In this document: positions 29,626 through 33,071 of the stretch, piece by piece
How positions within the stretch are numbered: position 1 is the first letter of the stretch
How the letters are laid out: every line of letters starts with the position of its first letter
NCBI RefSeq assembly: GCF_002087085.1
Contig: NZ_MWQY01000001.1
Location: forward strand, 248,001 to 312,000
Source of the DNA: Marispirochaeta aestuarii
Lineage (GTDB): Bacteria > Spirochaetota > Spirochaetia > JC444 > Marispirochaetaceae
DNA length: 64,000 bases
Direction: 5' to 3'
The notes under the pieces: generated by a model
What the model saw: the letters and a program-made list of their open reading frames with translations, nothing else
The model's database searches: none
What the model was told of the DNA's origin: nothing
Position numbers and translations under genes: made by a program

Positions 29626-30140
29626 CGCTGCTTTCGCTGCTGCTTGCCTTTCTAAAGATCGGTGCTTTCAGTTTCGGCGGCGGATATGCCGCGATCCCCC
29701 TCATAGAAGTCGAGGTCGTTCGAGTGCACGGCTGGCTCTCCCCTCACCAGTTTGCCGACCTCATTGCAATCTCTCAGCTGACCCCCGGCCCGATTGCCAT
29801 TAACTCTGCCACCTTTATCGGATACAGGGTGGCCGGGATTCCGGGTTCAGTCCTTGCAACCCTGGGAGTTCTGCTTATTCCAATCCTTATTGTGATTCTT
29901 CTGTGGATTGTCGCGGACCGCTTCTACCATTCCAGCTGGATACAGGGTGCCCTGCTGGGGCTGAAGCCGGCGCTGGTTGCCCTGATTTTTTACAGCGCCT
30001 GGTCCATAGGCCGGGTAGCTTTTGATTCTTCAGGACCGATTCTGCTGGCCCTGGGAGCATACGCTGTTCTCCGATTTTCAAGACTGCATCCTGCTTTCAT
30101 TATTGCGGCTTCGGGGCTTGTGGGGTTTCTGTTTTTGTAA
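29622..30140 (+). CDS. Chromate-transporter family protein, second half
   Basis: A 172-residue partner of the preceding gene, with the same two signature elements (FLKIGAFSFGGGYAAIPLIE and QLTPGPIAINSATFIGY). The two short CHR proteins form a heterodimer in the family. The ATGA overlap (29622-29625) implies co-translation. It ends 22 bp before the promoter of the EIIA-diadenylate cyclase gene. Confidence 0.85.
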   Translation: MTLLSLLLAFLKIGAFSFGGGYAAIPLIEVEVVRVHGWLSPHQFADLIAISQLTPGPIAINSATFIGYRVAGIPGSVLATLGVLLIPILIVILLWIVADRFYHSSWIQGALLGLKPALVALIFYSAWSIGRVAFDSSGPILLALGAYAVLRFSRLHPAFIIAASGLVGFLFL

Positions 30141-30162
30141 TTCAGCGGATTACATACGATCC

Positions 30163-30190
30163 TTGACAGGAAAGACCCGTAGGGTATTAT
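30163..30190 (+). promoter_or_regulatory. Sigma-70 promoter of the EIIA-diadenylate cyclase gene
   Basis: TTGACA (30163-30168) and TATTAT (30185-30190) are separated by 16 bp. The predicted start site, 6-8 bp later, falls at about 30197, only one or two bases from the ATG at 30199. This would make the mRNA nearly leaderless. Confidence 0.65.
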
Positions 30191-30198
30191 TGAAGGTA

Positions 30199-31527
30199 AT
30201 GACAATTTTCAGTCGCATGCTGACGGAAGGCTCGGTGTTTATCTACCCGGCAGGTCAGGGAGTCAGCAAGGACGAGGTTATACGGCGCCTGTGTAGAGCC
30301 GTCGCCGCGGATCTGGGGGGAATGGATGCCGCTCAGGTCGAATCCCTGGTGCAGAAACGGGAGGCCTCCCTATCCACCCGGCTGAGTCCTCTCCTCGCAG
30401 TTCCCCACGCCGTTATCCCCCACAGTAAGGACAACAGGATGGCGGTGGCTGTTATTCCGGATGGTCTGGACTGGGACAGTGACCGGGATAATCCGGTTCG
30501 TCTCGTGATGTTGCTTGCGGGGGGAAGGGAAAAACACCTCAAGCTCCTCAGTGAAATGGCTGCGGTTCTGCAGAATGAAGAGCTCCTTGATCGCCTCATT
30601 TCCGCCCTGAATGCCGCAGAACTTATCTCCATTCTGCGTCAACCGGAGGAAACCCGGGGCAATATATACCATGATCGTCTGGGCATTTCTTCGCTTATTT
30701 TCAACGAGGCGGTGAGGATTCGGAATTCCATCGATTCCGCCCGTCTTCTGCTGCATGCCGATGCCATTGAGGATGATGAGTTTATCGAATCCCTTGTGGA
30801 GGGAACGGATGCAATTATCGTTACCAGCCGGGAGGGACGTTTCGATTCCCGGCTCACCGATGGAAACAGTCCGATTGTCATGCCCTTCAAAGGAGTCAAG
30901 CGTTCCGCCCATGTTCAGTTTACCCTGATGTATCTTCTCAGCCGAAAAGTGCTCAGCCAGACTGATATCATTGTAAATGTCTTCGGGCAGCCTGGTTCCG
31001 GTTTTCTTGATTCCCTTCGGCTGACCCGGCTCGAGGATGCGGAGATTCCCTTTTCATCTGCAACCGAAGGTTTCCCGGAGGACCTGGAGATCTCCACCTT
31101 CACCCGTGTCCTTCAGGTCGCGACCCAGATCGCCCTGGAGGGAAGGGAGGGGAAACCGGTGGGGACCCTTTTTGTGGTCGGCGATTACGATGGGGTCGTG
31201 CAATATACCAGGCAGATGATCGCCAATCCCTTTCATGGTTATCCCCGGGAGGACAGGAATATTCTTGATCCGAGCATTGAAGAGACGGTAAAGGAGTTCG
31301 CCCGCATCGACGGTGCCTTTATTATAAACGGTGACGGCACAATTGAATCCGCCGGGACCTATTTGTCCGGCCAGCCGACCGCCGAAGAGATGCATTCAGG
31401 CCTTGGCGCCCGGCATGCTGCAGCCCAGGGAATATCCGCCGTCAGTTCCGCTCTTGCTGTGGCAATATCCGAATCGACACGAAAGATAAGCGTCTTCAAA
31501 TCAGGACGGCTTATTATGGAATTATAA
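30199..31527 (+). CDS. PTS EIIA domain fused to DacZ-type diadenylate cyclase
   Basis: A predicted 442-residue c-di-AMP synthase. Residues 1-150 look like a fructose/mannitol-type EIIA domain with the phospho-acceptor candidate His70 in AVPHAVIPH. Residues 155-315 resemble the pyruvate-kinase-C-like domain of archaeal DacZ proteins (TDAIIVTSREGR, VNVFGQPGSG). Residues 320-442 form the DAC domain: VVGDYDGVV, NPFHGYPREDRNI, DGAFIINGDG (Asp371-Gly-Ala) and GLGARHAAAQGIS (Arg404-His405), close to the RHR motif. Condensing two ATP to c-di-AMP under PTS phosphorylation control is an inference. It precedes an epimerase by 34 bp. Confidence 0.85.
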   Translation: MTIFSRMLTEGSVFIYPAGQGVSKDEVIRRLCRAVAADLGGMDAAQVESLVQKREASLSTRLSPLLAVPHAVIPHSKDNRMAVAVIPDGLDWDSDRDNPVRLVMLLAGGREKHLKLLSEMAAVLQNEELLDRLISALNAAELISILRQPEETRGNIYHDRLGISSLIFNEAVRIRNSIDSARLLLHADAIEDDEFIESLVEGTDAIIVTSREGRFDSRLTDGNSPIVMPFKGVKRSAHVQFTLMYLLSRKVLSQTDIIVNVFGQPGSGFLDSLRLTRLEDAEIPFSSATEGFPEDLEISTFTRVLQVATQIALEGREGKPVGTLFVVGDYDGVVQYTRQMIANPFHGYPREDRNILDPSIEETVKEFARIDGAFIINGDGTIESAGTYLSGQPTAEEMHSGLGARHAAAQGISAVSSALAVAISESTRKISVFKSGRLIMEL

Positions 31528-32467: not shown

Positions 32468-32649
32468 ATCTCAATAAGGCCAGCCGTACCGGCAGACCTT
32501 TTTCCGTTCTGGAGCTGATGGGAGTCCTCTCCGACCGTTGACATCCTGTCTCCGGTCTTCGAGCCGCCTTCGTTCGCTGCCGCGCACATCCTGTGCGCTC
32601 TTCCTCGCACCTGCTCGGCGCTCACTTTGTTTCGACTCCCACCTCTTAC

Positions 32650-32684
32650 AAAAAACAAGAGGCCCGCAAAAGCGGACCTCTTGT
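32650..32684 (-). terminator. Terminator copy in distal repeat unit
   Basis: A 13-bp stem (32655-32667 with 32672-32684), loop of four, then a T-run of five to six on the minus strand. The stem is complete apart from one G-U pair. It is the less altered of two copies. Confidence 0.75.
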
Positions 32685-32827
32685 TTTTGGAGCTGATGGG
32701 AGTCCCTTCCGGTCGGCGGCTTCGTGCCTCCTCCCTCCAGGCCGCCGCGCTCACTGGCGCTAAACATCCTGTTTAGCTTCCGGCCCTTTACGGGCCGCGT
32801 TCGCTTGTTTCGACTCCCATCTCTTAT

Positions 32828-32861
32828 AAAAACAACAGGCCCGCAAAAGCGGACCTCTTGT
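32828..32861 (-). terminator. Terminator of the tRNA-Ala gene
   Basis: The same hairpin as the copy at 32650-32684, just after the tRNA 3' end on the minus strand. The stem pairs 32832-32844 with 32849-32861, with one mismatch (32836/32857), then a short T-run. It should end the tRNA transcript, though less efficiently than the distal copy. Confidence 0.7.
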
Positions 32862-32864
32862 TTT

Positions 32865-32938
32865 TGGAGCTGATGGGAGTCGAACCCACGACCTGTTGAT
32901 TGCGAACCAACCGCTCTAGCCGGCTGAGCTACAGCCCC
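32865..32938 (-). tRNA. tRNA-Ala (anticodon CGC)
   Basis: The minus strand folds into a full cloverleaf: acceptor GGGGCTG/CAGCTCC, D-arm GCTC/GAGC, anticodon stem GTTGG/TCAAC with loop TTCGCAA (anticodon CGC), 5-nt variable loop and T-arm GTGGG-TTCGACT-CCCAT. The acceptor has the G3-U70 pair that identifies alanine tRNAs, and the discriminator is A. CCA is not encoded. It decodes GCG. Confidence 0.93.
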
Positions 32939-33071
32939 TTCTATTTAAAGCCTTTTATTGTAAACAGTTATCCAGATAATTATAGGAATTATAATATGGA
33001 TCTTAAAAAAAGTACACTGAAAAATTGAGACGGGCCGGTATTTCGGCAGTATATTTTTACAAGAGGAAAAT

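Follow-up and report, generated by a model that had tools for sequence, protein, structure and literature searches.

Downstream of a tRNA-Ala(CGC) gene in the window, the 64,000-nt stretch of DNA analysed here, of the genus Marispirochaeta (Spirochaetota), lies an array of two units of ~133 nt, which runs on the tRNA-Ala strand with a period of 177–178 bp. Its features are listed below in the 5' to 3' order of that strand, with unit scores from two covariance models: R1, which was made from the units of the same genome, and R2, a retrained model whose training set was the 104 units from the R1 search.

32979..33006 (−): promoter-like site before the tRNA, TTAAGA-16-TATAAT (consensus scan only)
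32865..32938 (−): host tRNA-Ala(CGC) gene (ARAGORN and Rfam RF00005, 65.4 bits)
32822..32864 (−): first spacer, from the tRNA to the near unit, with a terminator-like hairpin (stem 32837–32856, then a T-run)
32689..32821 (−): near structured unit (R1 139.9 bits, the unit being in the R1 training set; R2 135.9 bits; fold z −4.5)
32812..32821 (−): near unit, 5' strand of P1, reverse complement of the 3' strand of the host T-arm
32759..32777 (−): near unit, hairpin P3, loop CAGGAUG, CsrB-type
32718..32728 (−): near unit, inner hairpin of the P5 arm, loop CACGAAG, without GGA
32688..32704 (−): near unit, tail together with the 3' strand of P1, matching the last 17 nt of tRNA-Ala exactly
32644..32688 (−): second spacer, whose terminator hairpin is almost that of the first (54-nt repeat, 98% identical)
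32511..32643 (−): far structured unit (R1 119.5 bits, the unit being in the R1 training set; R2 113.2 bits; fold z −4.5)
32634..32643 (−): far unit, 5' strand of P1, antisense T-arm
32582..32598 (−): far unit, hairpin P3, loop CAGGAUG
32540..32550 (−): far unit, inner hairpin of the P5 arm, loop CAGGAUG
32510..32526 (−): far unit, 17-nt copy of the tRNA-Ala 3' end

The first-pass annotation of this DNA had described tRNA 3'-end repeats at 32689 and 32511 with periods of 177 and 178, and these are confirmed, GGAGCTGATGGGAGTC recurring at 32689–32704 and 32511–32526 at spacings of 177 and 178. The inverted T-arm copies and the shared terminator hairpin, once after the tRNA and once after the near unit, are present as described. 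Hairpins with a fixed AGGAT loop had also been claimed; such hairpins are indeed found, with ACATCCTGT occurring three times in the 64-kb window, all within the array, against an expectation of 0.36, but the loop is not fixed, as the second hairpin of the near unit carries CACGAAG and relatives carry CA[G/C]GANG or CANGGANG.

On the tRNA strand, both the near and the far unit fold more stably than shuffled sequences (z −4.5 each) and more stably than on the opposite strand. A consensus scan found no promoter-like site between tRNA-Ala and the units. No integrase was found in or beside the array, the units being too short and four flanking window proteins having been searched; these gave matches to an epimerase, to a lactate-racemase-like/DUF362 protein and to PTS-EIIA plus DisA-type domains, with one protein left without a match. 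The protein predicted at 30022–31527 (+) of the window combines a PTS EIIA domain with a DisA-type diadenylate cyclase domain.

A family of structured units behind spirochete tRNA genes

Homologous units lie behind the Ser, Gly and Leu tRNAs of the same genome. A search of this and related genomes with a covariance model had been suggested in the first-pass annotation; the model was built, and the units proved to recur behind many tRNAs. R1 matched eight units in its own genome and detected units in 20 of 60 relatives, and R2 (E ≤ 0.001) extended this to 87 of 393 Spirochaetota genomes, 84 from the same class and three from outside it, with unit counts per genome being lower bounds. Two contig ends, G000:C15 (L014/L065 1–230) and G000:C40 (L013/L066), share one Gly unit, suggesting that the arrays break short-read assembly and that unit counts in draft genomes are too low. 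AGGAT hairpin words elsewhere in the genome lie mostly away from tRNAs, and most genome-wide pattern matches were due to chance. Spread into other phyla was likewise set aside under the present model, since 13 non-spirochete genomes gave no convincing match and nothing better than E 0.3. The searchable literature, which omits most subscription journals, holds no description of a spirochete family of this kind.

A five-helix multi-branch structure emerged from a plain MAFFT alignment of six units from the same genome, in which 19 of 38 pairs are doubly changed; this alignment is free of the bias towards the model that affects the larger alignments of 98 and 42 units. Pairing holds in 83% of cells across the 98 distinct units. 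When P1 is excluded, the inner helices contain 730 double-change cells, compared to 212 in shuffled and 85–141 in slid controls (104 units, 98 distinct), and compensatory changes were seen in all 31 inner pairs. The same covariation behaviour was obtained with another set of 42 distinct units, most of which come from genomes outside the training set. A chance repeat or a simple duplication is ruled out by the covariation together with the phylum-wide recurrence.

Apart from P2, the well-formed inner helices hold more G-U than A-C combinations (51 vs 9), the same bias as in the host tRNAs (155 vs 9), while no such bias is seen in P1 (27 vs 27) or P2 (4 vs 4). This excess points to an RNA of the tRNA strand, which is very probably the functional form of the unit. 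We rejected a DNA-only structure on the same grounds: G-U and A-C are nearly equal overall, but the well-formed inner arms except P2 favour G-U. Of the two readings offered in the first-pass annotation, that of a structured RNA read past the tRNA is thus strongly supported as far as structure is concerned, by recurrence, compensatory changes and G-U bias.

Nearly every unit with upstream sequence sits 3' of a tRNA or tmRNA on the same strand, such a gene being detected within the fetched DNA for 121 of 140 distinct units. The hosts comprise tRNAs for Ala, Gly, Ser, Leu, Met, Arg, Val, Pro, Thr, Lys, Asn, Glu, Gln, Tyr and Trp, as well as tmRNA. Most first units begin 40–68 nt past the host tRNA, and a terminator-like hairpin is found in 71 of the 88 family spacers longer than 25 nt. 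Nine units lie 2–17 nt past the tRNA, several of them within Ser or Arg tRNA operons without a terminator, and are therefore probably co-transcribed with the tRNA. For eight units of the first set, which lie far from the ends of the fetched DNA, no host was detected. In at least one case, L122 748–1263 (genome G045), a three-unit array follows a sequence resembling a tRNA-Leu 3' half (~640–700), uncalled by ARAGORN and Rfam, which is possibly a degenerate tRNA that has kept its units.

The boundaries of the units are set by the host. The 3' end of each unit is a copy of the host tRNA end from T-loop to discriminator, with at least 12 consecutive nucleotides matching exactly in 99 of 121 comparisons of a tail with its own host, and in 0 of 2420 comparisons with sampled other tRNAs. 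At the 5' end, the host T-arm appears as its reverse complement, which closes helix P1; this inverted head shares a median of 10–11 nt with its own host, compared to 5 nt with other tRNAs. We regard it as almost certain that the units form a family that is structured and under selection, and whose tRNA ends match the host.

Relation to RtT RNA of E. coli

The closest known relative, which the first-pass annotation did not mention, is the RtT RNA of E. coli (rttR, Rfam RF00391), encoded by the ~178-bp repeats of the tyrT operon. As in the spirochete units, RtT lies 3' of a tRNA on the same strand, and the two have in common a 5' end antisense to the T-arm, a copy of the host tRNA 3' end, the closing helix P1 and a tandem arrangement of variable copy number with a period of 178 bp. 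The RtT core differs from that of the spirochete units in having fewer arms and in missing the GGA-loop hairpins. The E. coli repeats score 133–137 bits with the Rfam RtT model, which has no match in the window at gathering and none at E ≤ 1 in the eight spirochete family loci tested. In the tyrT locus, R1 and R2 alike rank the four RtT copies as their top four matches, with weak scores (9–15 bits). Because the anatomy is shared but the Rfam RtT model finds no match, we call the spirochete family RtT-like in design, and not RtT; the best reading of the window array is that it consists of two copies of this undescribed family of RtT-like, tRNA-tailed structured RNAs.

RtT is expressed and released from tRNA transcripts, as reported for E. 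coli and Actinobacillus (PMC4986893). The annotated RttR ends at CCA, and the RtT core is followed by the tRNA-Tyr 3' end. Seen beside the spirochete family, the tyrT repeats are no longer a peculiarity of E. coli but an instance of a more general design, the rule of which is strict: the core is conserved, and the ends are copied from whichever tRNA is the host. The role and origin of RtT RNAs also become testable, including the match of each copy to its own tRNA.

A proposed role as a CsrA-binding RNA

The P3 loop contains GGA in 84 of 98 units, mostly as CAGGANG or CANGGANG; half of the P5 loops are CAGGANG and the rest mostly CACGANG, with CGA in the P5 loop of 45% of units. CsrA recognises GGA within a loop, typically a hexaloop, and the motif repeated in the hairpin loops of CsrB is CAGGA(U/A/C)G (PMC7652899, PMC5027483). 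The units are therefore like the CsrA-titrating sRNAs of the CsrB/CsrC/RsmZ type in their CAGGA(U/A/C)G and CANGGANG loops, and also in being rich in GGA (6.1 per spirochete unit vs 5.0 when shuffled); the PrrB/RsmZ model gave a weak match among the family loci (28.8 bits, below the gathering threshold of 44). Unlike CsrB-type sRNAs, a single unit bears only one such loop or two, of which one is often CGA, with tandem arrays adding more, and the units are attached to tRNA genes. Compared to the preferred CsrA SELEX hairpins, most P3 stems have greater length and a higher GC content, and the pentaloop has one base fewer than the CsrA-typical hexaloop.

The csrA gene was found in 82 of 87 unit-bearing genomes and in 252 of 306 others (p 0.006, a statistic that ignores phylogeny), and most csrA-bearing spirochetes have no unit detected by the R2 search of 393 genomes. 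In three csrA-less species (G013, G056 and G053), which represent two lineages, the units found are short and lack both GGA hairpins. In G261, csrA and fliW were both undetected, yet the GGA loops are kept. With the loops and the co-occurrence with csrA in support and G261 against, titration of CsrA is a plausible, if unproven, role of the units. The CsrA idea of the first-pass annotation thus gains circumstantial support from CsrB-like loops and from the distribution of csrA, including the csrA-less species without the hairpins, and is weakened by the frequent CGA in second loops, by the one csrA-less genome with GGA loops and by E. coli RtT, which has none. Leptospira has no known csrB or csrC homologue, and FliW has been proposed as the CsrA antagonist there (PMC8668096). 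The units would give spirochetes a candidate CsrA-sponge RNA.

In our full account, RNA polymerase would pass the end of the tRNA, either through the terminator or directly inside tRNA operons, and the unit would fold into a closed multi-branch RNA, with P1 formed by the antisense T-arm copy paired to the host T-arm copy. The 3' end of the unit would be matured by the tRNA 3'-processing machinery, since it is itself a tRNA 3' end, and as suggested by the end of E. coli RtT at CCA. The released RNA would then display one or two GGA-loop hairpins, binding and titrating CsrA, and CsrA activity would thereby be coupled to tRNA transcription. We put this combination of an RtT-like RNA transcribed with its tRNA, tRNA-like 3' maturation and CsrA titration forward tentatively, with confidence slightly short of even. 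The data demonstrate the family itself, its structure and boundaries, the match to the host tRNA and the gain and loss at tRNAs; read-through transcription, 3' maturation and CsrA binding are inferred.

A precedent in principle may be 3'ETS-leuZ, reportedly an excised tRNA-operon spacer that acts as an sRNA sponge. If the unit acts as proposed, it would likewise be a product of a tRNA transcript serving as a sponge, with the difference that its target would be a protein, not an sRNA; 3'ETS-leuZ is not known to have the structure or the tRNA end that characterise the spirochete units.

Mobility, cis regulation and evolution of the units

An alternative is that the units are mobile or recombinational elements, small modules bounded by tRNA 3' ends that would be inserted and excised at tRNA or tmRNA genes by a recombinase acting in trans, with restoration of the tRNA; the folded core would be needed for mobility, perhaps as single-stranded DNA, and P1 would provide a double-stranded tRNA-like site. 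As with integrative elements at tRNA and tmRNA 3' ends, the direct repeats, including those at tmRNA, span T-loop to 3' end and restore the tRNA. Furthermore, precisely a spacer with its RtT unit is missing in E. coli SK1144 from between two 3' ends of tRNA-Tyr (L144 1400–1800 compared to K-12 L145), RtT matches vary from 0 to 9 per E. coli genome (none in 771 of 5426), nearly identical tandem copies occur, the two Ala units stand in swapped near/far order between G000 and G002, and P1 lacks the G-U bias. We nevertheless consider this reading unlikely as a whole. Unlike tRNA-targeting integrative elements, the units have no integrase and no genes, measure ~178 bp and contain an inverted copy, and no recombinase is linked to them. 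Orthologous units of G000 and G002 are 91–99% identical, which within one genus argues for vertical inheritance; homologous recombination between direct repeats accounts for gain and loss without an enzyme; and the inner helices behave as RNA. Transport as phage or plasmid cargo was rejected, as the listed phage and plasmid matches show tRNA similarity alone, being tRNA genes or tRNA-like stretches, and two viral pattern matches hold no unit and have no R2 match. What stands of the other first-pass reading, that of small elements at tRNA 3' ends, are the boundaries and the gain and loss seen at the E. coli RtT empty site and in array copy-number changes, but not active transposition.

The unit could instead be a cis regulator of its own tRNA, the antisense T-arm pairing either with the real T-arm or with its copy, such that the read-through RNA would act as a switch that leaves the tRNA precursor folded or misfolded, or would tune termination and 3' processing. 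Consistent with this, P1 matches the host tRNA and not tRNAs generally, and when the whole array is folded to minimum energy, the antisense T-arm of the near unit pairs with the T-arm of the tRNA itself, around the terminator. When the unit is folded alone, however, P1 forms as readily as the alternative pairing, and the conserved five-helix core and its loops would be superfluous for such regulation, so that the cis reading in its entirety appears distinctly unlikely to us.

Miniature units of ~85 nt with near-identical cores occur in G013 at tRNA-Leu(GAG) and tRNA-Leu(CAG) (L284 1501–1586 and L291 1501–1583), and each bears the ends of its own host tRNA. Two histories would account for this: the core was transferred and its two ends rewritten, or gene conversion homogenised the cores of older units. 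Rewriting of ends from the host could be likened to retroelement primer sites copied from tRNA. A joint reading, in which a widespread class of elements would spread among tRNA and tmRNA genes, rewrite both its direct and its inverted end from each new host and earn its keep as an RNA that binds CsrA and is tied to tRNA output, is in our estimate more doubtful still. That tRNA 3' ends and terminators were duplicated in tandem over and over, with the units as a neutral outcome, is scarcely credible: direct repeats do make tandem copies and copy-number change easy, but strong phylum-wide covariation and homologous cores at many tRNAs would be unexpected without selection, and alignment error is an unlikely escape given the slid-structure control.

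A second kind of tandem repeat, of ~70 nt, is found at the Marispirochaeta tRNA-Val(CAC) and also ends in a tRNA 3'-end copy, TCCAGTATCGCCCA. In these repeats, a hairpin replaces the T-loop (end of L307, which is G000:C40, as well as L308 and L310), and in G001 the ~70-nt Val repeat comes after a full unit.
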